64,000 bases of DNA, taken from contig NZ_JAQFIP010000001.1 in the NCBI RefSeq assembly GCF_029504735.1, positions 1-64,000 of the forward strand, written 5' to 3'. Source of the stretch: Ereboglobus sp. PH5-10 (GTDB taxonomy: Bacteria > Verrucomicrobiota > Verrucomicrobiia > Opitutales > Opitutaceae). Under the pieces are notes generated by a model, which ran no database searches, was not told the origin of the DNA, and worked only from the letters and a program-made list of their open reading frames with translations. The translations under genes were made by a program, and so were the position numbers. Below are positions 23,560 through 34,709 of this stretch, piece by piece (the stretch's first letter is position 1; the number at the start of each line of letters is the position of its first letter).

Positions 23560-23599
23560 ACCGGGAATGAATGAGAATACGGAATGCAGAATGTAGAAT

Positions 23600-23751
23600 A
23601 CAGGAGTCAGGAGTCAGGAGTCAGGAGTCGGAACTTCGGCTGACGCGTGGTTGATGGAAATTGGGTCATGGCGTTTTGTTGGTGTGATTGTTGTGTGCGC
23701 GGCTTTTTATGGTTTGGAGCTGACTCCTGTATTCTGACTCCTGACTCCTTT
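23600..23751. repeat. Family A palindromic element, nuoK-nuoL spacer
   Basis: It is an intact copy. The left end has four GGAGTCA repeats (from about 23601), then the core GGAACTTCGGCTGACG, a GTCATGGCGTTTTGTTGG segment and TTATGGTTTGGAGC. The right end is complementary (TGACTCCTG, CTGACTCCTGACTCC). It is the reference for locating the insertions in the copies at 24071-25090 and 29640-30127. Confidence 0.9.
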
Positions 23752-23755
23752 TTCT

Positions 23756-24061: not shown

Positions 24062-24070
24062 GGTGGGAAA

Positions 24071-25090
24071 AGGAGTCAGGAGTCAGAATACAGGAGGCAG
24101 GAGTCGGAGCTTCGGTTGGCGCGTGGTTGATGGAAATTTGGTCATAAGTTTAAACAGGGCTGCAGGATTGTTTATTTTAGTCGTCGCGTGGCAGTGTTTT
24201 CCAGTAGCGATTTCATCTGGGTGATGGCGGCGGTGTTGAGCTGAACAAGACGGTCTTTTTGCGCGAGCCCCTGGCGTATGAGAAGCGCGTTGATGCTCTC
24301 CATGTTTGAAAGCACGACCAGTTGCTCCAGCGTCGCTGTGTCACGGATATTTTCCTTTGAGGACGCATCCGGGTTTTCGGCGCGCCATTGCGCGGCAGTC
24401 TTGCCAAAAAGCGCGACGTTGAGCAGGTCGGCTTCCGAGGCATAAACGATTGACGCCTGTTTTTTTGTAACAACGGCCGGAATTATCCGCTCCTTGATGG
24501 CATCAGTGTGAATGCGGTAGTTGATCTTGGAAAGCGTGCGCTGGAGGTTCCACTCGAAAGAGAGGCGGTGCTGTTCGTCCTCTTTGAGACGCTGAAACTC
24601 CAGCAGCAGATAAAGCTTGAATTCGGAGCTCACCCACGAGGCGAATTCAAAGGCTATGTCCTTGTGCGCGTATGTGCCGCCCCCGGAGCCCGCTTTTGTC
24701 ATTATGCCAATGGCACTGGTGGTTTCGATCCACTTGCTGGGGCTCATTGTGAACGCGTTGCTGCCGGCTTCGAAGAGAAGGGGGTCGATTTCGACCCCTT
24801 TGAAACCGGGGTTATGTATTTTTTCCCACAGGGCCAGAAACTCAATGGTGCTGCGATTGCGCATCCAATTTTTCACAACGTCCTTCGGCTCCTTTGGGTT
24901 TCTGTGGCGCGCGATGTCAGTAATGCAGATATACTCCTTGCCATGCCGGTCGAAGACGACGATGTCCGTTCCTTGAACGGTAATGGTGTCTGTTTTGGGT
25001 TTAGGCATGGAGTGAATGGAGTGCGATTGTTGTGCGCGAGGTCTTATGGTTTGTCTCCTGGCTCCTGTATTCTGTCTCCTGGCTCCTTTT
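24071..25090. mobile_element. Family A element interrupted by a KilA-N gene
   Basis: The left half (24071-24145) matches intact family A copies up to GGTCAT. The right half (25021-25090) resumes at GTGCGATTGTTGTG and ends with CTCCTGG repeats. Between them lies the complete KilA-N gene in place of about 14 bases of core sequence (GGCGTTTTGTTGG in the intact copy). The gene therefore sits inside the palindrome rather than beside it. Confidence 0.75.
24172..25008 (-). CDS. KilA-N domain protein, first copy
   Basis: This 278-residue protein has an N-terminal KilA-N domain (about 10-130, with ITDIARHRNPKEP, NWMRNRSTIEFLALWE and AFEFASWVSSEFKLYL). A conserved helical C-terminal region follows (YASEADLLNVALFGKTAAQW, LVVLSNMESINALLIRQGL). 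KilA-N domains bind DNA in phage and viral proteins. Bacterial chromosomal members of this layout are common but uncharacterised. A paralogue of identical length lies at 32218-33054 in the same operon. It is embedded in a family A element, on the same strand as nuo, so it does not obviously block transcription. Confidence 0.88.
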   Translation of the reverse strand: MPKPKTDTITVQGTDIVVFDRHGKEYICITDIARHRNPKEPKDVVKNWMRNRSTIEFLALWEKIHNPGFKGVEIDPLLFEAGSNAFTMSPSKWIETTSAIGIMTKAGSGGGTYAHKDIAFEFASWVSSEFKLYLLLEFQRLKEDEQHRLSFEWNLQRTLSKINYRIHTDAIKERIIPAVVTKKQASIVYASEADLLNVALFGKTAAQWRAENPDASSKENIRDTATLEQLVVLSNMESINALLIRQGLAQKDRLVQLNTAAITQMKSLLENTATRRLK

Positions 25091-25592
25091 CCTCATGCTT
25101 TTTGCTGATGACGATGACGCCGAGCATGCCGACGAGGAGGAGGAAACCGACGAGTTGCACGGGGAGCATGTAGGTGGTGAAGAGTTTCGCGCCGTAGATT
25201 TTCAGGTCGGTGAAAAACGCGGGGGCTTGGGCGAGCGCGAGCTCGTCGGTCGAAAACTGGCCGCGCGCGAAAAACGAGAACGCGCCGAAGATGAGGAGCG
25301 CGCCGGCAATGGAGCTGGCGACTATGGTCATCTTTTTGAACGGGGGGCGTTTTCCGCCGTGCATGTCGAGGAGCATGATGATGAAGAGGAACAGCGCCAC
25401 GACCGCGCCCGCGTATACGAGGATGAGCAGGAACGCGAGCAGGTGGGCGTCAAGCATCACGAAGAGCACCGAGATGCCGCACAGGCAGACAAAAAAACTG
25501 AGCGCGGACGCGACGGCGTTGCGATTGGCGACCAAGCCGATCGCGGCGGCAAGCGTGAGGGCGCTAAAGATGTAGAAGAGGATGGCGGGCAT
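25044..25592 (-). CDS. nuoJ: NADH-quinone oxidoreductase subunit J
   Basis: This 182-residue protein has five membrane segments and the conserved LILVYAGAVVALFLFIIMLLD stretch containing the TM3 pi-bulge region. NuoJ lies between NuoA/H and NuoK in the membrane arm and takes part in coupling. The last 15 or so residues (EKEPGDRIQEPGDKP) are encoded by the family A repeat at the start of the downstream spacer, which also supplies the TAA stop. Similar tails occur on NuoE and NuoG. Confidence 0.95.
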   Translation of the reverse strand: MPAILFYIFSALTLAAAIGLVANRNAVASALSFFVCLCGISVLFVMLDAHLLAFLLILVYAGAVVALFLFIIMLLDMHGGKRPPFKKMTIVASSIAGALLIFGAFSFFARGQFSTDELALAQAPAFFTDLKIYGAKLFTTYMLPVQLVGFLLLVGMLGVIVISKKHEEKEPGDRIQEPGDKP

Positions 25593-25623
25593 GGAGAAAA
25601 GAATATGGGAATCGGAATACGGA

Positions 25624-25774
25624 ATACAGGAGTCAGGAGTCAGGAGTCAGGAGTCGGAACTTCGGCTGGCGAAGGCTTGCTGGAAATTTGGACATGGCGT
25701 TTTGTTGGTGCGATTGTTGCGGGCGGCTTTTTATGGTTTGAAGCTGACTCCTGTATTCTGACTCCTGACTCCTT
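25624..25774. repeat. Family A palindromic element, nuoJ-nuoI spacer
   Basis: Intact copy: GGAGTCA repeats, GGAACTTCGGCTGGCG, GACATGGCGTTTTGTTGGTGCG, then TTATGGTTTG and the complementary CTGACTCC end. It lies between the nuoJ start and the nuoI stop codon. The NuoI stop falls immediately before the arm. Confidence 0.9.
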
Positions 25775-25777
25775 CTT

Positions 25778-26308
25778 TTAATGCTTTTCAGCGGCGGCTT
25801 TCTTCTTGTCCCACTTGAGGTGGGTGTCGGGGAGCGTGCCGCCGAGTTCGTAGAGTTTTTGTTTGTTGTTCACCATTTCGGCGCGGGTGTATCCGCTGGA
25901 TGAATACACGTTTTGCAGCCAGATGGCCTCCTCGGGGCAGACTTCCTGGCAGAGGCCGCAATAGATGCAGCGGAGCATGTTGATCTCGAATTCCCTCGGG
26001 CCTTTCTCGACGTGGGCGTTGGGCGAATCGGCGGGGATTTCGCCGGGCGTGATGCGGATGGCCTTGGGCGGGCAAACGAATTCGCAGAGCTGGCACGAGA
26101 CGCATTTTTCGCGTCCGTGCGGGTCGCGCACAAGCGTGGGCACGCCGCGGTAGCCGGGCGGGATTTCCGGACGCTCCTCGGGGTAGTTCACCGTGACCGG
26201 CTTGGCGACGATGTGCTTCATCGTCGTCTTCATGCCCGACAGGATTTGCGGGATGTATGTGCGCTCGGCGAGCGAGAGCGGTTTGCGTTGGACTTGGATG
26301 ACGGACAT
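25778..26308 (-). CDS. nuoI: NADH-quinone oxidoreductase subunit I
   Basis: The 176-residue ferredoxin-like subunit has two complete 4Fe-4S motifs: Cys69, 72, 75, 79 (CVSCQLCEFVCP) and Cys114, 117, 120, 124 (CIYCGLCQEVCP). These hold clusters N6a and N6b in the peripheral arm, relaying electrons towards NuoB. The N-terminus and length are normal. It lies 103 bases after nuoH. Confidence 0.97.
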   Translation of the reverse strand: MSVIQVQRKPLSLAERTYIPQILSGMKTTMKHIVAKPVTVNYPEERPEIPPGYRGVPTLVRDPHGREKCVSCQLCEFVCPPKAIRITPGEIPADSPNAHVEKGPREFEINMLRCIYCGLCQEVCPEEAIWLQNVYSSSGYTRAEMVNNKQKLYELGGTLPDTHLKWDKKKAAAEKH

Positions 26309-26310
26309 GG

Positions 26311-26345
26311 GAAATGCGGAATGCGGAGTTCGGAATGCGGAATTG
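26311..26345. repeat. Family G repeat (AATGCGGAATGCGGA), nuoI-nuoH spacer
   Basis: Tandem AATGCGGA/GTTCGGA units form one arm. No clear complementary arm is seen in the remaining 65 bases, which include a short GGCCCGATCGGGC palindrome. The same units are translated inside the E2 gene at 59626-59660. Confidence 0.7.
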
Positions 26346-26410
26346 AGTGGACTGATTGGCCCGATCGGGCGGATGAGTCTGATTGGAAATTTTTACGAGT
26401 GGCGGCGGTT

Positions 26411-27577
26411 TTATTTTTGCAGAAGCGCGATGGCGATTATGTAGACCACGAGGTTGGCGATGGACAGCGGGAGGAGGCGCTGCCAGCCGATGCGCATGAC
26501 TTGGTCGTAGCGGAAGCGCGGGAGCGTCCAGCGCACCCACATGAAGATGAAGATGAAGATGAGCACTTTTGTGACAAAGATGCCAATCGAGAGCAGGCCG
26601 ACAAAGATCGGGTGCATGAGCCATTGCCAGTGCAGGAGGTCGTGCAGCCAGTTGACCAGGTCGGCGAGCGGTATCCACGGAAGCGGATTCCAGCCGCCGA
26701 GGAAGAGCAGGATGAAGATGCCCGAGCCGACAATCATCTGGCAATACTCGGCGACAAAGAAGAGCGACCATTTGTAGGAGCCGTATTCGGTGTGGTAGCC
26801 GCCGACGAGATCAGCCTCGGACTCGGGCATGTCGAACGGCTGGCGGTTGGTCTCGGCAAAGATCGTGATGAGGAAGATGAAGGCCGAGACGGGCATGATA
26901 AACACAAACCACATGCCGCCCCAAAATCCGGGCTGGCTTTGGAACTCGACCACGCGCACGAGGCTGAGCGAGCCGGTGGTGCCGGGCGCGTTGATCCAGA
27001 GGAGCACGGGCACGACGGCGAGCGTCATGGAGAGCTCGTAGGAGATGAGTTGCGCGCTGGCGCGAATGGCGCCGAGGAACGGATACTTGGAGTTCGACGC
27101 CCAGCCGGCGAGGATGAGCGAATACACGCTGAGCGATGCGAGCGCGAAGACGCCGAGGATGCCGATGTCGACGTTGGCGAGCATCACGGGGAGGATTTGC
27201 CCGGCGCTGTCGAGATACGCGCCGAAGGGCACAAACACGATCGTAGAGAGCGCGGGTGTCATGGCCACGATGGGCGCCATGACGAAGTAGAATTTGTTAA
27301 CGTGACCGGGGGTGATGTCCTCGCGGAAGAGGAGTTTGCCGCCGTCGGCCATGAGGTTGAAAATGCCAAAGTATCCGAGGATCGGGCCGATGATCGGAAT
27401 CCGCGCGAGCAGCCACGGGCGCGCGCGATTGGGGCCGGGGCGATCCTGCGCCCACGCCGCGACTTTGCGCTCGGCCATCGAGCAGGCGGCGCCAACGGGA
27501 AAGAGAAAACAGATCACCGCTATCCCTTGGATGATGTAGCGGACGATGTCTGGCAGGCTGAAATAGAAGTCGATCAT
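26411..27577 (-). CDS. nuoH: NADH-quinone oxidoreductase subunit H
   Basis: This 388-residue membrane protein has the NuoH motifs RKVAAWAQDRPGPNRARPW near residue 40, the acidic funnel FAETNRQPFDMPESEADLVGGYHTEYGSYKWSLFFVAEY, and FRYDQVMRIGWQRLLPLS near the end. NuoH couples the quinone chamber to the antiporter subunits. It is complete. It is followed by a 103-base gap and preceded by a family A element separating it from nuoG. Confidence 0.97.
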   Translation of the reverse strand: MIDFYFSLPDIVRYIIQGIAVICFLFPVGAACSMAERKVAAWAQDRPGPNRARPWLLARIPIIGPILGYFGIFNLMADGGKLLFREDITPGHVNKFYFVMAPIVAMTPALSTIVFVPFGAYLDSAGQILPVMLANVDIGILGVFALASLSVYSLILAGWASNSKYPFLGAIRASAQLISYELSMTLAVVPVLLWINAPGTTGSLSLVRVVEFQSQPGFWGGMWFVFIMPVSAFIFLITIFAETNRQPFDMPESEADLVGGYHTEYGSYKWSLFFVAEYCQMIVGSGIFILLFLGGWNPLPWIPLADLVNWLHDLLHWQWLMHPIFVGLLSIGIFVTKVLIFIFIFMWVRWTLPRFRYDQVMRIGWQRLLPLSIANLVVYIIAIALLQK

Positions 27578-27600
27578 TTTGGAAAGAATGCTGGAAAGAA

Positions 27601-27762
27601 TACAGGAGTCAGGAGCCAGGAGTCAGGAGTCGGAGCTTCGGCTGACGAGGGTTTGATGTAAATTGGGACATGGTGTTTTGTCGGCGTATGATTGTTGTGC
27701 GCGCGTTTTTTGCAGTTTTATGGTCTGGCTTCTGACTCCTGCATTCTGGCTCCTGACTCCTC
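27601..27762. repeat. Family A palindromic element, nuoH-nuoG spacer
   Basis: Intact copy: GGAGTCA repeats, CGGAGCTTCGGCTGACG core, GGACATGGTGTTTTGTCGG, TTATGGTC and CTGACTCC repeats. The right 45 bases overlap the 3' end of nuoG and encode its last residues and stop codon. Confidence 0.9.
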
Positions 27763-29604
27763 CTGCCGCTCCGCGGCAGGTTTGTAGTGCAGCCCCTCGG
27801 TTTCGGGGAATGCGAGGTGGGCGAAACGGGTGGAGTCGAGGACGCGACCGGTTTCGGGGATTGTCAGGTAGTCGAGGCCGGCGAGTTCCGGGGTTTCCTC
27901 GGAGAGACGGCTCCAGGCGGCGATGGGGCTGCCGGCAAAATCGTGCCCGCCGAGGTTCACGAGAATATGCGAGAGAACCACGAGGTCGTTGTGGGTGCCG
28001 GGATGGCCGGGGATGGCGGCCTTGGAACGTTGCAGGCGGAACTGCTGGTTCACGAAACTGCTGTCTTTCTCGAACACGGTTTGCGTGGGGATGACAACTT
28101 TCGCGGCGGCGCTGGTGGCGTTGGCGTGCGTGCCGAGATAGATGATGGAAACTTTTGCGAGCTGCTCGGGCGTGATGCCGGCTTCGGCGAGGTCTTCGTT
28201 GATGACGAGGAGCGTCTTGATTTTTCCGGCGTCGATGTCGGCGGCGAGTTGCGTGAGTTGCGGCTTGGGGAGCCCGGTGGCGAGGCCGCAGAGGAGCGCG
28301 CCGCGCGTGTTCGGCGTGCGGTCGGCGGAAACGAGAAGCCCGTCGCCCTGGCCGAGATGCGCGGGGACGTGGATCGCGCCGACGGGAATGCCGAGCTGGT
28401 CGGCGATTTTTTTGCAGAGGTATTGCTCGGCCATCGTGCTGCGGGCGGAGGCTACCAAGGCGATGGATTGCGTGGCACGGGCGACTCGCCCGTGAGGGTT
28501 GTGTGGCACGGACGACTCGTCCGTGCTTGGCGCGGCGGCGCCTGTTCGCATGGCCGGGTCGGCCATGCCACCCGAACCCATGGGCGAGTCGCCCATGCCA
28601 CTCGATCCGGGCGCTGCCGCGCCAGTGAGAAGGGATTTGGCTTGCGCGATGAGGTCGGCGAGCGGCGTCTCGGTGGTGAGGCGGTTTTCGGCGCGGACTT
28701 GTTTGTAGAGGAGGCGTCCGCTGTCGGGCATCCAGGTGTCGTTGACCTCGTCGTTGCGACGCGGGGTGATGCGGTAGATTTGGCCTTCGCGCGACCAGAC
28801 GACGGTGTTGGCGCCGACGCTCGATTCGGTGTCGATGCTGTTGGTTTGCTTGAGAAACCAGACGCGCATCTTGAAACGGAAATCGGTCGAGGTGAGCGCG
28901 CCGACGGGGCAGATATCGACGGTGTTGAGCGAGTAGTTGTTGGAGAGTTGTTTGCCGGGATAGCAGGTGAGCGTCGAGTGGCTGCCGCGGTCGATGAAGC
29001 CGAGCACGTCGTCCTTCGCGATTTCCTTGGTGAAACGAATGCAGCGCGAGCAGAGGATGCAGCGCTCGTCGTCGAGCATGACGCGCGGGCCGAGCTGTGT
29101 GTGCTTGGGTTTCACGTTTTTGTCCTCAATGTAGCGCGAGCAACCGCGCCCGTAGGCGATGGCTTGCTCCTGCAAATCGCATTCGCCGGCCTGGTCGCAA
29201 ATGGGGCAGTCGAGCGGGTGGTTGACGAGGAGGAATTCCGTGACGGATTCGCGCGCCTGGCGCACCGCGGGCGTGGTGGTGCGAATGTGGAGGCCGGGCG
29301 TGGCGTTGGTGCCGCAGCCGATTTGGAGCTTGGGCATCCAGTTGATTTTTTGTTTGCCGGTGGCGGGATCGATGACGGGCTGCCGGGTTTCGCGATCGAC
29401 GGCGGGCACGCCCATTTCGACGAGGCACATGCGGCAATTTCCGACGACGGGGAGTTTCGGGTGGTAGCAATAATGCGGCACGTTGACGCCGAGGAGTCGC
29501 GCGGCCTCGACGACGTTTGTGCCGCGCGGAACGGCGATGTCGCGACCGTCGATGTTGACGGTGACGAGGTCGGGGGTGGCGGCGGTGGCTGTTGGTGCGG
29601 ACAT
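27718..29604 (-). CDS. nuoG: NADH-quinone oxidoreductase subunit G
   Basis: This 628-residue subunit has the N-terminal 2Fe-2S cluster (Cys46, 57, 60, 97), the His-Cys3 4Fe-4S site (His129, Cys133, 136, 142) and the third cluster (Cys182, 185, 188, 232), followed by a shortened molybdopterin-oxidoreductase-like domain. Two repeat-derived parts stand out. Residues about 333-380 are low-complexity peptide (GMGDSPMGSGGMADPAM ... HGRVARATQS) encoded by several family D palindromes at the start of the molybdopterin-like domain. The last 15 or so residues (EESGARMQESEARP) come from a family A element. Both are in frame. The protein is shorter than E. coli NuoG (about 900 residues), as in many bacteria. 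Confidence 0.94.
   Translation of the reverse strand: MSAPTATAATPDLVTVNIDGRDIAVPRGTNVVEAARLLGVNVPHYCYHPKLPVVGNCRMCLVEMGVPAVDRETRQPVIDPATGKQKINWMPKLQIGCGTNATPGLHIRTTTPAVRQARESVTEFLLVNHPLDCPICDQAGECDLQEQAIAYGRGCSRYIEDKNVKPKHTQLGPRVMLDDERCILCSRCIRFTKEIAKDDVLGFIDRGSHSTLTCYPGKQLSNNYSLNTVDICPVGALTSTDFRFKMRVWFLKQTNSIDTESSVGANTVVWSREGQIYRITPRRNDEVNDTWMPDSGRLLYKQVRAENRLTTETPLADLIAQAKSLLTGAAAPGSSGMGDSPMGSGGMADPAMRTGAAAPSTDESSVPHNPHGRVARATQSIALVASARSTMAEQYLCKKIADQLGIPVGAIHVPAHLGQGDGLLVSADRTPNTRGALLCGLATGLPKPQLTQLAADIDAGKIKTLLVINEDLAEAGITPEQLAKVSIIYLGTHANATSAAAKVVIPTQTVFEKDSSFVNQQFRLQRSKAAIPGHPGTHNDLVVLSHILVNLGGHDFAGSPIAAWSRLSEETPELAGLDYLTIPETGRVLDSTRFAHLAFPETEGLHYKPAAERQEESGARMQESEARP
28469..28612. repeat. 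Family D palindrome cluster inside nuoG
   Basis: Four stems in about 144 bases: GTGGCACGGGCGACTCGCCC, GTGGCACGGACGACTCGTCC, CATGGCCGGGTCGGCCATG and CATGGGCGAGTCGCCCATG. The cluster length is a multiple of three and the frame is kept, adding roughly 48 residues to NuoG. Confidence 0.9.
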
Positions 29605-29639
29605 TGGTGGAAGAGAAGAAAAGAAGAAGAAGAAATAGA

Positions 29640-30127
29640 ATACAGGAGTCAGGAGTCAGGAGTCAGGAGTCGGAACTTCGGATGGCGAAAGATTGAGGGG
29701 AATTTCACGGGGAGGGTGCTTGGATGGCGTTGGTGTAGGCGGTGAGCAGGCGGCTGATCTCGGCTAGTTGATGGTTGAGTTCGGTGGTGTCACCGTAGTT
29801 CAGGTCGCGCGTCAGGATGAGATAGTAACGACATTCCTCAAGCGAGCCTTGGGCGATGTTGAAGAAGCGGCGTTTGTCCGCCGCGCCTGTTTTTTTATAG
29901 CCCTCGGCAATGTTGGCGGGAATGGAAACCGCGGCGCGCCGCAGCTGGCTGGTCAGCCCGTAGAGTTCGTGTGATGGAAACTTCGCGCTCAGCCGGTAAA
30001 CTCCAAGCACCCACGCATGCGCCTTTTGCCAGACGATCAAATCCTCAAAAGTGCGCGAGGGAGCCCTCGAGCCCTCGAAGCCGGAGGTTTCCCTCCTGAC
30101 TCCCGACTCCTGACTCCTGACTCCTTT
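29640..30127. mobile_element. Family A element carrying an S23 gene
   Basis: The left part (29640-29704) matches the nuoF-nuoE copy through GGAACTTCGGATGGCGAAAGATTGAGGGGA and then switches to the S23 stop codon. The right part is only the terminal arm (30093-30127, CTGACTCC repeats), which lies inside the 5' coding region of the S23 gene. The gene therefore replaces the interior of the element. Confidence 0.7.
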
Positions 30128-30145
30128 TTGAATCATCGTTGGCAT
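29705..30145 (-). CDS. Four-helix bundle protein (S23 / 23S rRNA intervening-sequence family)
   Basis: The 146-residue protein has the S23 family core: FEDLIVWQKAH at the start of helix 1, LTSQLRRAAVSIPANIAEGY, RRFFNIAQGSLEECRYYLILTRDLNY and LLTAYTNAI. Members form homopentameric four-helix bundles. Some are encoded in 23S rRNA intervening sequences, others are free-standing, and the function is unknown. The domain begins at about residue 32. Residues 5-18 (IQKGVRSQESGVRR) come from a family A arm, so the N-terminus is repeat-derived. It lies between nuoG and nuoF and shares their strand. Confidence 0.88.
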   Translation of the reverse strand: MPTMIQKGVRSQESGVRRETSGFEGSRAPSRTFEDLIVWQKAHAWVLGVYRLSAKFPSHELYGLTSQLRRAAVSIPANIAEGYKKTGAADKRRFFNIAQGSLEECRYYLILTRDLNYGDTTELNHQLAEISRLLTAYTNAIQAPSP

Positions 30146-30160
30146 ATCAATGGTCGAATT

Positions 30161-31504
30161 TTAGATTAACGGAACGCAGTCCGCTCCTCGCGGTGTTTTC
30201 TTTGTTTCGTAATAGTTGCCGAAATCCTCGGGGAATTTTTCGACGTAGCTTTGCGTGGGCCAGGCGCAGGCCTCGCCCATCGCGCAGATCGTGCGTCCGG
30301 GGATTTGGTCGGCGACGCTTTTCAACAGCGCGGCGTCCTCGGCGCGGGCGGCGCCGTGAACCATGCGCGCGGTGATGCGCTTCATCCAGAGCGAGCCTTC
30401 GCGGCAGGGCGTGCACTGGCCGCAGGATTCGTGCGCGTAGAAGGCGTTTATGTTGGCGAGCGCCTCGACCATGTTGACGGTGTCGTCCATCACAATCACG
30501 CCGCCGGAGCCGCCCATCGTGCCGCACGCGGCGAGTGTGTCGAAGTCCATCGGGATGTCCTCGACGGCGAGCGTGCGCGTGGAGCCGTCCTTGTTTTTGA
30601 GCGTGAAGGTTTCGCCGAAGCGAAGGATTTTCGACGAGGAGCCGCCGGGGATGACCGCCTTGAACGCGCGGCCGGGACGCGGGCCGCCGCACACGTCGTT
30701 GAGGAGCTGGCCGAGCGTGATTTTGCCGCACTCGAATTCGTAGTAGCCGGGACGCTGCACGTGGCCGGAGACGCAGTAGATGCGCGTGCCGGTGTTGTTG
30801 GGCGTGCCGATTTTTGCGAAGGCCTCGCCGCCCATGTCGATGATGTGTTTTACGTGGCAGATGGTTTCGACGTTGTTGACGATGGTCGGGCACTGGTAGA
30901 GGCCGAGGACGGCGGGGAAATACGGGGGCTTGATGCGCGGGTTGGCGCGCTTGCCTTCGAGCGATTCAATGAGGCCGGTTTCCTCGCCGCAGATGTAGGC
31001 GCCGGCGCCGCGGTGCACGTAGATTTCGCACGAGTAACCGGTGCCGAGAATGTTCGGGCCGACGAGGTTTGCGGCGCGCGCCTCGGCGATGGCGCGCTCG
31101 AGGATGCGCGCGCCCTCTGGCATTTCGCCGCGGATGTAGATGTAGGCTTGCTTCACGTTGTTCGCGAAGCAGGCGATCATCGTGCCCTCGATGAGCTGGT
31201 GAGGGTCCTGGTGGATGATGTAGCGGTCCTTGAATGTGCCGGGTTCGGATTCGTCTGCGTTGACGACGAGGTAGATGGGCTTGCCGGATTTGCGGTCAAC
31301 GAGGTTCCACTTCACGCCGGCGGGAAAACCCGCGCCGCCGCGCCCGCGGACACCGGATTTCTTGACCTCGTCAATGAGTTCGGCGGGAGGGCGGGCGACG
31401 GCCTTGCGGAGGACATCGTAGCCGCCGTTGCGCTGGTAGCACGCGAGGTCGTTGGTGTAACCGGGCTCGTCGATGTGCTTGAAAATGATGCGGCGTTGTT
31501 GCAT
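30161..31504 (-). CDS. nuoF: NADH-quinone oxidoreductase subunit F
   Basis: The 447-residue subunit has the NADH/FMN-binding loop GRGGAGFPAG (54-63), the conserved NADESEPGTFKDR (82-94), ICGEETGLIESLEG (171-184) and the N3 4Fe-4S cysteines Cys361, 364, 367 (ESCGQCTPCREG) and Cys407. It binds NADH and FMN and passes electrons to the peripheral-arm clusters. Its start codon is at 31504, 148 bases beyond the nuoE stop and a family A element. It is complete. Confidence 0.97.
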   Translation of the reverse strand: MQQRRIIFKHIDEPGYTNDLACYQRNGGYDVLRKAVARPPAELIDEVKKSGVRGRGGAGFPAGVKWNLVDRKSGKPIYLVVNADESEPGTFKDRYIIHQDPHQLIEGTMIACFANNVKQAYIYIRGEMPEGARILERAIAEARAANLVGPNILGTGYSCEIYVHRGAGAYICGEETGLIESLEGKRANPRIKPPYFPAVLGLYQCPTIVNNVETICHVKHIIDMGGEAFAKIGTPNNTGTRIYCVSGHVQRPGYYEFECGKITLGQLLNDVCGGPRPGRAFKAVIPGGSSSKILRFGETFTLKNKDGSTRTLAVEDIPMDFDTLAACGTMGGSGGVIVMDDTVNMVEALANINAFYAHESCGQCTPCREGSLWMKRITARMVHGAARAEDAALLKSVADQIPGRTICAMGEACAWPTQSYVEKFPEDFGNYYETKKTPRGADCVPLI

Positions 31505-31519
31505 GGGAGAAAAAGAATA

Positions 31520-31697
31520 CAGGAGTCAGAACACAGAACACAGAATACAGGAGTCAGGAGTCAGGAGACGGAACTTCGGATGGCGAAAGATTGAGGGGAG
31601 TTTGGACATGGTATTTTGGTGCGCGCGATTGTTTGTGTGCGTTTTCGAGGTCTTATGGTTTGGCTTCCGACTCCTGACTCCTGACTCCTGACTCCTT
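31520..31697. repeat. Family A palindromic element, nuoF-nuoE spacer
   Basis: Slightly longer intact copy (about 178 bases) because the left arm carries an extra AGAACACAGAACACAGAA stretch. The core is GGAACTTCGGATGGCG, GACATGGTATTTTGGTGCGCG and TTATGGTTTGGC, with right arm CTGACTCC repeats. The right arm encodes the NuoE tail. Confidence 0.9.
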
Positions 31698-32162
31698 TTT
31701 GATCTCGTTCGCGAGATCAACGGCTTTCTGCTCGTCCACGTTTTCGTGGAGGGTTTCGTTGATCATCACGACGGGGGCGGTGCCGCAACTGGCGAGGCAT
31801 TCGACAAACTCGATCGTGACCTCGCCGTCGGGCGTGACTTCGTCGAGTTCGACGCCGAATTCTTTTTTGAAGGTGTCGCAAACCTTGTAGCTGCCCATCA
31901 GCGCGCAAGAGAGCGTGCGGCAAACCTTGATGTGGCGGCGTCCGACGGGCTTGCGCTTGAACATCGGGTAAAAGGTGACGACCTCGTAAACATTGATCGG
32001 CTCGAGCTCCAGCTTGGCGGCAACCCACTCGATGGCTTCGTCGGGGATGTGCCCGATGTCCTCTTGTATGAGGTGCAACAACGGCAGCGTGGCGCTGCGC
32101 TTGGCGGCGTAGTGCGTTATGACCTCGTCGATTTGTTTGAGTGTTTCGGGTTTGAGATTCAT
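31653..32162 (-). CDS. nuoE: NADH-quinone oxidoreductase subunit E
   Basis: This 169-residue thioredoxin-like subunit has the four ligands of the N1a 2Fe-2S cluster: Cys81 and Cys86 (CRTLSCALMG) and Cys122 and Cys126 (ECLASCG). The last 14 residues (ESGVRSQESEAKP) do not belong to the family. They are encoded by the family A arm, whose TAA in CCATAA ends the ORF. The normal end would be near ANEIKK. A second KilA-N gene lies upstream. Confidence 0.95.
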   Translation of the reverse strand: MNLKPETLKQIDEVITHYAAKRSATLPLLHLIQEDIGHIPDEAIEWVAAKLELEPINVYEVVTFYPMFKRKPVGRRHIKVCRTLSCALMGSYKVCDTFKKEFGVELDEVTPDGEVTIEFVECLASCGTAPVVMINETLHENVDEQKAVDLANEIKKESGVRSQESEAKP

Positions 32163-32217: not shown

Positions 32218-33054
32218 TTACTTTAGCCTTTTCAAACCGCTGGCTCCTAGCAACGACTTCATTTGTGCGATGGCGGTGGTGTTTAGTTGCACCAGACGTT
32301 CGCTTTGGGAAAGACCTTGGCGTATCAGAAGCGCGTTTATGCTTTCCATGTTTGAAAGGACGACGAGTTGTTCGAGCGTGGCGCCGTCGCGAATGTTCTC
32401 CTTTTTGGCGAGCGCAGGATTGGCGGCGCGCCATTGGGCGGCGGTCTTGCCAAAAAGCGCGACATTGAGCAAATCCGCCTCTGACGCATAAATGGCGGCG
32501 GCTTGCTCCTTGGTCACGGCAGCCGGAATTATCCGCTCGCTTATGGCGTCGGTATGGATGCGGTAATTGATTTTGGAAATGGTGCGCCGCAGACTCCATT
32601 CCAACCGTTGATGCCCGCTTTCCTCAATTTTCAGGCGCTTAAACTCGGTAATCAGGTATAGCTTAAATTCGGACGAAATCCACGAAGCGAATTCAAACGC
32701 AATATCCACATGCGCATAAGTGCCGCCATACCTGCCTGACTTGGAAACAATGCCAATAGCGTTTGTGGACGCAATCCATCGCTGCGGCGAAAGCACAAAA
32801 GAGTTGCTTCCCGCCTCCATTCTAAACCTCTCGAATTCGATAGGTTTAAAAGCGGGGTTGTTTAGTTTTTCCCAAAGACCGATGAACTCGATTGTGGCAC
32901 GACTGCGCATCCAGTTGTTGATAATGGAAAAAGGCTCCACGGCGTTTCTGTGCCGGGCTATGTCCGTCAATGAAACGTAAGCACCCGCCGCCGCCGAATA
33001 CAGCACGACTTCAGTCCCCTGGACGGTAATGGTGTCTTGTTTGGATTTAGCCAT
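32218..33054 (-). CDS. KilA-N domain protein, second copy
   Basis: This 278-residue paralogue of the protein at 24172-25008 has the same length and, by eye, about two thirds identical residues. The C-terminal half is nearly invariant (YASEADLLNVALFGKTAAQW). The KilA-N domain is about 10-130 (LTDIARHRN, NWMRSRATIEFIGLWE, AFEFASWISSEFKLYL). It lies between nuoE and nuoD on the operon strand. Unlike the first copy it is not enclosed by recognisable family A halves, though a nested family B element follows its upstream side (33092-33260). DNA binding is inferred from the domain. The biological role is unknown. Confidence 0.88.
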   Translation of the reverse strand: MAKSKQDTITVQGTEVVLYSAAAGAYVSLTDIARHRNAVEPFSIINNWMRSRATIEFIGLWEKLNNPAFKPIEFERFRMEAGSNSFVLSPQRWIASTNAIGIVSKSGRYGGTYAHVDIAFEFASWISSEFKLYLITEFKRLKIEESGHQRLEWSLRRTISKINYRIHTDAISERIIPAAVTKEQAAAIYASEADLLNVALFGKTAAQWRAANPALAKKENIRDGATLEQLVVLSNMESINALLIRQGLSQSERLVQLNTTAIAQMKSLLGASGLKRLK

Positions 33055-34550: not shown

Positions 34551-34709
34551 GAAAGGCTGAAAGACTGAAGGACTGAAAGGCTGAAATTTTCGGAGCTTCG
34601 GTTGTGTTGGATTTTTAAGTGGCTTGGCGCGGTTGGATTGGTGCTGGCTTTCTGGCTTCTGGCCTTCTGTTTTTTTCAGCCTTTCAGCCCTTCGGTCCTT
34701 CAGCCTTTG
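34551..34709. repeat. Family A2 palindromic element, nuoD-nuoC spacer
   Basis: The left arm 34551-34585 has GGCTGAAAGACTGAAGG units and the right arm 34674-34709 has the complementary CAGCCTTTCAGCCCTTCGG units. The core begins CGGAGCTTCGGTTG, like family A, so A2 may be a relative with different arms. The right arm encodes the NuoC tail. A half-element of the same type lies at 35415-35456. Confidence 0.8.

Follow-up and report, generated by a model that had tools for sequence, protein, structure and literature searches.

A hairpin spacer confined to the nuo operon probably supplies the shared C-terminal tail of three complex I subunits in Ereboglobus sp. PH5-10

How do three different subunits of one respiratory complex come to end in nearly the same peptide? 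The question is raised by the nuo operon, coding for complex I, in a stretch of 64,000 nucleotides (nt) from Ereboglobus sp. PH5-10 (Verrucomicrobiota; Opitutaceae; assembly GCF_029504735.1, contig NZ_JAQFIP010000001.1, positions 1 to 64,000), called the window below. An initial annotation of this DNA claimed that NuoE, NuoG and NuoJ share a C-terminal tail, that an arm and core of a palindromic repeat encode this tail together with its TAA stop (in CCATAA), and that all three genes read the repeat in one frame. These claims are borne out by the analysis presented here. The open reading frames (ORFs) of NuoE (31653-32162, 169 residues), NuoG (27718-29604, 628 residues) and NuoJ (25044-25592, 182 residues), all on the minus strand, end in ESGVRSQESEAKP, ESGARMQESEARP and EPGDRIQEPGDKP, respectively, which are related tails of 13 residues each. 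Tail and stop occupy the last 44 nt of each gene (31653-31696, 27718-27761 and 25044-25087, minus strand), and the last Pfam match stops before the tail in every case, at residue 154 of 169 in NuoE, 541 of 628 in NuoG and 162 of 182 in NuoJ.

The distance from AGGAG to the end of TAA in CCATAA is 44 nt in nuoE, nuoG and nuoJ, both in the window and in the sister species (genome G001). These 44 nt are composed of the 5' arm (in gene sense) and the first core bases of an inverted repeat filling the spacer behind the gene. The spacer has a characteristic anatomy: AGGAGTC heptamers in an array make up the first arm, about 90 nt of core follow, and an inverted array closes the structure as the second arm, lying 88-105 nt beyond in nuoE-nuoF and nuoG-nuoH of both species and in nuoJ-nuoK of the sister species. 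Hairpin spacers of this kind, all on the minus strand, are located in the window between nuoE and nuoF (31514-31699, limits approximate; inverted repeat score 23, folding z score -5.8), nuoG and nuoH (27595-27764, limits approximate; 19, -6.2), nuoI and nuoJ (25600-25774; 19, -5.8) and nuoK and nuoL (23574-23752; 19, -3.4). In the nuoJ-nuoK spacer (24066-25092, minus strand; arms 25055-25092 and 24066-24103) the core is split by a nested KilA-N gene (24172-25008, minus strand; PF04383, E 1.7e-20), which is absent from the corresponding 119-nt spacer of the sister species (score 30, z -11.3). A related KilA-N gene lies between nuoD and nuoE (32218-33054); these two are the only KilA-N matches in the genome, and G002, another member of the genus, has one and the sister species none. 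As also stated in the initial annotation, NuoI and NuoK retain their normal stops just before the element, the arm beginning 4 nt and 6 nt past them, respectively, and NuoC likewise ends in an arm. The word repeated in this nuoC-nuoD spacer (34552-34708, minus strand; score 26) is a different one, GGCTGAA, and the TGA inside it serves as the NuoC stop.

All three tailed genes read the arm in the phase that yields the shortest tail. Either of the two other phases would add 28-56 residues, or 304 by way of the KilA-N gene in the nuoJ-nuoK spacer of the window. Because a common phase would arise only once in 27 cases if phases were random, selection for a short tail is its simplest reading. In the untranslated nuoI-nuoJ and nuoK-nuoL spacers of the window, the same distance from AGGAG to the stop is 43 nt, not 44.

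The nuo stretches of ten other genomes were compared with that of PH5-10. Three of them represent the same genus: the sister species G001, assembled in a single contig, G002, and the 65% complete G003, whose contig covers nuoC to nuoF only; the remaining seven belong to other genera. The tails are restricted to PH5-10 and the sister species, in which the last 48 nt of NuoE and NuoG are identical and those of NuoJ differ at one position (one residue). In G002, NuoE ends in KAAAKK and NuoG in HYKPAK, both lacking the tail, and NuoJ has a heptamer-derived end of its own, QESGGKGARS. NuoE of G003 has the unrelated end RPAPPPAAS, and the tail was not found in NuoJ of the seven other-genus genomes. 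Thus no relative without the spacer, among those examined, carries the same tails, a finding that would have spoken against the initial annotation. Its expectation that the ends of these families lie about 14 residues earlier is correct insofar as all three proteins exceed many relatives: seven relatives of NuoE, with 160-166 residues, are shorter by 3-9, NuoG extends 17 residues beyond its counterparts in G002 and G004 and 10 beyond that in G006, and NuoJ is 9-13 residues longer than six other-genus proteins of 169-173 residues. The rule is not uniform, however, given the long NuoE of G003 and G004 and the NuoJ of G007, which has 184 residues and its own end. The NuoE of G004 (178 residues) terminates in a heptamer tail of its own, RVRSQESGVRSQEPESRIHT, read in another phase; it is the sole heptamer end among the seven other genera. 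In a wider survey, in which 33 genomes had a NuoE match and loci were taken from 20, 26 rows gave 24 distinct readable genes (one row repeats another, and one end is unreadable). Heptamer-derived ends were present only in PH5-10, the sister species and G004 and, as a partial heptamer, in one of the two G077 copies. The nuoJ stop overlaps the projected nuoK start in six of seven other-genus operons (G004 has a spacer there), and an insertion at this place therefore had to bring a stop. These comparisons support the view that the spacer supplies the tails and stops of NuoE, NuoG and NuoJ.

We infer from the open frames, which continue uninterrupted across the first arm up to CCATAA, that the tails are translated. 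Between PH5-10 and the sister species, tail codons differ at 1 of 144 positions and post-stop cores at 12 of 257 (p 0.04); the lower change in the tail codons would agree with translation. Such conservation might also be expected if the shared tail itself were adaptive, for example as a signal, common to several complex I subunits, for docking or degradation. This is highly improbable, since close relatives lack the tail or have unrelated ends, and the peptide is a mere translation of the heptamer, found inside unrelated proteins as well. Tandem arrays can be misassembled, and a sequencing or annotation artefact, with tails not truly belonging to the genes, has to be considered too. We regard it as just as improbable, because a separate single-contig genome, that of the sister species, carries the same tails, and the ORFs contain no stop before CCATAA. 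The predicted structure of NuoE with its tail is too poor to use (mean predicted local distance difference test score, pLDDT, 65.8; predicted template modelling score 0.49), with residues 161-169 below pLDDT 50, as are 84-95 and 121-142.

By what route did one tail reach three genes? The arms resemble terminal inverted repeats and score far above shuffles, as might be expected of a mobile palindromic element, similar to miniature inverted-repeat transposable elements (MITEs) or Rickettsia palindromic elements (RPEs), that entered the other spacers and the ends of nuoE, nuoG and nuoJ in separate events. The heptamer is also present at 19 other places in the genome, and the other phase of the G004 tail suggests that nuoE was struck more than once. 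The distribution of the core, however, makes this explanation unlikely. The pattern of core plus stop has five copies in PH5-10 and four in the sister species, all in nuo and on one strand; it was not found outside nuo in either genome and is missing from G002 and the 65% complete G003 (a backwards control gave 1-2 matches in three genomes). Moreover, the spacers overwrite one another. The reading as a dispersed or mobile repeat is therefore not upheld in PH5-10 and the sister species, and the statement of the initial annotation that stop codons were overridden at least three times is true of three genes, but not of three independent insertions.

The cores can be aligned across five spacers and two species, and their differences point to exchange between neighbours. 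The 3' half of the nuoI-nuoJ core in the sister species has 0 of 43 differences from nuoK-nuoL and 8 of 43 from its own orthologue; the end of the nuoF-nuoG spacer in the window has 4 of 43 from nuoE-nuoF of the window and 17 of 47 from its own orthologue. In two cases, then, a spacer is closer to a neighbour than to its counterpart in the other species. This makes local copying likelier than three independent insertions, and the operon gives the impression of a region in which sequence is exchanged locally. We consider it probable that the tails derive from hairpin spacers which form one family, occur in this nuo operon alone and have been copied from gap to gap. Matching arms would most likely have allowed a spacer to enter other gaps, either through non-allelic recombination or through template switching. 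If the junction lay ahead of a gene's stop codon, the gene would lose this codon together with its last native codons, and the arm would be read up to the TAA in CCATAA; copies in the phase adding only 13 residues would be kept. If it lay past the stop, as in NuoI and NuoK, the protein would remain unchanged. We infer both this mechanism and the near-neutrality of the tails.

In favour of copying with tolerated tails, heptamer inserts stand in frame at linkers of other conserved proteins, which indicates that proteins tolerate such arrays. Several observations weigh against it. The cores are present in two genomes only, and no more than two comparisons show copying. Operon-confined copies would result from local transposition too, though not obviously on one strand, and no intermediate was observed that shows a tail arising from a copied spacer. 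NuoE of G003 is as long as that of PH5-10 (169 residues) without any heptamers, so length alone proves nothing. The relatedness of the G002 nuoJ-nuoK core was judged by eye only. The lower change in the tail codons is slight, and the untranslated homologous arms have changed little as well (4 substitutions and an indel).

The heptamer itself, presumably the repeat called STRR, is not restricted to nuo. Two heptamer units (AGGAGTCAGGAGTC) have 46 matches in the PH5-10 genome, against none for the reversed control; nuo holds 19 of the matches, and the remaining 27 are spread over the 19 other places. At seven of these places the array lies inside an ORF and in frame; six of the proteins were identified, namely LeuS, MetH, PurL, FeoB, an SNF2-type helicase and AcnA. 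Their heptamer peptides occupy sites where relatives have short or unrelated linkers. Alignment with G001, G002 and G006 showed that the MetH and PurL inserts, and mostly the AcnA insert, are common to PH5-10 and G001. The LeuS heptamer is shared with G002, not with G001, and that of FeoB is present in PH5-10 only; the helicase insert of G001 is different and shorter, with no match in G002. No further C-terminal tails were seen at the 19 places outside nuo. A 21-mer of the heptamer is present in six of 61 genomes of the family (reversed control in one). Among the matches listed for the exact 28-mer of four AGGAGTC units (at least 80 loci), the hosts belong to several phyla, mostly Cyanobacteria, and include Bacteroidota, Acidobacteria, Planctomycetota, Nitrospirae, Anaerolineae and others. 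Of 87 arrays among these listed matches, two had an inverted two-unit partner within 600 nt and three ended a long ORF, and nine long-ORF rows in eight loci crossed an array.

Hairpin spacers occur in nuo operons beyond this genus. We scored 52 spacers of 40-330 nt from 11 operons, a range that leaves aside the nuoJ-nuoK, nuoF-nuoG and nuoD-nuoE spacers of the window and others. Inverted repeats scoring at least 15 were found in 25 of them, 13 outside PH5-10 and its sister species, and are built of several different words; the best of eight dinucleotide shuffles per spacer never exceeded 12. In nine of the 25, the upstream stop codon ends more than 3 nt past the start of the first arm (NuoC in three operons, NuoE in three, NuoG in two and NuoJ in one); therefore, palindromic spacers invading the upstream gene recur in this family, and the window presents the most striking case. 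The hairpins might be selected as processing, stability or translation signals, copying serving to homogenise a useful signal with the tails as a tolerated side effect, which would be consistent with the frequency of strong inverted repeats and with spacers folding far better than their shuffles (z down to -11.3). We find this explanation quite unlikely, as 27 of the 52 spacers remain below the threshold, other-genus operons often have gaps of a few bases, and words and arms change freely. An element aimed at Shine-Dalgarno sites, suggested by the likeness of AGGAG, was dropped on a reading of the spacers by eye only. Palindromes in other-genus nuo spacers consist of other repeated words, for example CACGGAG, AATTAAG and GCAAAGC, and often fill the whole gap from stop to start. 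NuoG of the window carries an in-frame insertion of about 47 residues (28465-28624) made of yet another palindromic word, GGCACGGGCGACTCGCCCGTG, with arms at 28465-28494 and 28579-28608; it is absent from G001, G002, G004 and G006, and G007 has a different insertion at this site.

The nuoF-nuoG spacer (29633-30129, minus strand, limits approximate; arm-to-arm score 25) has heptamer arms flanking a gene of the S23 family (29705-30145, minus strand; PF05635, E 8.7e-36), and the 5' arm is read as part of the S23 N-terminus (KGVRSQESGVRR). An S23 gene occupies this place in PH5-10, G001, G002 and G004, the operons with heptamers, and in none of six other-genus operons examined; G006 has no S23 match. 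To 30 of 46 Opitutaceae matches, 29 new phylum-wide ones were added, and after two had been skipped at contig ends, 57 S23 loci were scored. Inverted arms scoring at least 15 span the S23 gene in 40 of 57 loci, a rate to be taken as approximate, since the sample favours strong matches and includes sister-species orthologues (such as the nuoF-nuoG copies), so that not all loci are independent. The same score was reached by one of 74 other ORFs (120-433 residues) of those loci and by none of 315 random positions. Within six Opitutaceae genomes the counts are 25 of 30 S23 loci against none of 180 random positions; the phylum-wide sample gave 15 of 27 further loci against none of 135, three Opitutaceae loci there scoring 11-14. 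Among deliberately mismatched pairs of left and right arms, one of 60 reached 17, with a mean of 8.5.

Arm words mostly differ from locus to locus, and because each locus has mostly its own word while its two arms match, the palindrome would be regenerated locally and not inherited as one family. It is thus possible, and we put it forward tentatively, that hairpins between protein genes form a broad class, to which the nuo spacers belong as short members and whose coding form carries S23 between arms of repeated words; S23, perhaps by binding the hairpin, would keep or spread them, and the tails and in-frame inserts would be by-products. Against this count the lack of similarity of the small core to S23 in G001 or G002, the different word in the nuoF-nuoG arms of G004, and the 17 of 57 S23 loci below the threshold. 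The idea that the small cores are internal-deletion forms of an S23 element was rejected: 18 of 27 core-to-S23 comparisons, those with G001 and G002, gave p of at least 0.17. Three comparisons with the S23 stretch of the window gave p of at most 0.01 (nuoE-nuoF of the window and of G001, 0.003; nuoI-nuoJ of the window, 0.01), and this stretch itself looks copied from nuoE-nuoF.

Parts of this picture are already known. RPEs are described, in excerpts of two reviews (PMC10969869, PMC2229807), as palindromic repeats of about 150 bp found in frame inside unrelated conserved genes. The heptamer arrays resemble them in standing in frame in six identified conserved genes, whole palindromes only in part; unlike RPEs, the core keeps to a single operon, where it has apparently passed from spacer to spacer, and most in-gene inserts look, by eye, like single arrays and not whole palindromes. 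In an amidase, RU-1 removes the stop and supplies the C-terminus (PMC2759123, excerpt), and the final 33 residues of EnhC are reported to come from QMITE2 of Coxiella (PMC5896051, excerpt). The outcome at gene ends is the same here as with enterobacterial RU-1/ERIC and Coxiella QMITE, a palindrome giving the C-terminus, but those elements are dispersed and strike unrelated loci, whereas here an operon-confined spacer affects three subunits of one complex. The spacer shares inverted terminal arms with MITEs, but not, in the genomes searched, the presence of the same core at dispersed genomic sites. Heptamers of Beggiatoaceae overlap ORF ends (PMC4679880, excerpt). Like the Beggiatoaceae TAACTGA and the cyanobacterial STRR heptamers, AGGAGTC is tandem and mostly intergenic; those arrays are mainly direct, whereas here they are paired as inverted arms. 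The ends of the intervening sequence of Coxiella 23S rRNA are complementary and form a long stem, whose loop contains an S23 ORF (PMC4990558, excerpt). The nuoF-nuoG spacer similarly has its S23 ORF between complementary ends, but it is located between protein genes rather than within rRNA, and has arms of repeated words, which mostly vary by locus.

Palindromes supplying a C-terminus and stop, in-frame palindromic inserts and heptamers overlapping ORF ends are thus known. Searches by title and abstract opening, mostly outside subscription journals, returned nothing on the heptamer in Opitutaceae, on shared tails of complex I subunits or on S23 between repeated-word arms, and searches with the sequence strings themselves found no paper. 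As far as these searches show, the operon-confined core, the copying between spacers, the occurrence of one tail in three subunits of the same complex and the association with S23 are new.

The nuo operon of Ereboglobus sp. PH5-10 thus presents a case of spacer DNA becoming protein sequence, apparently by copying inside one operon and not by dispersal; the proteins belong to a core respiratory complex, and close relatives provide the before-and-after states. If the S23 association is true, a widespread protein family of unclear function would gain a concrete substrate: hairpins with two arms that correspond to one another but, for the most part, not to those of any other locus.

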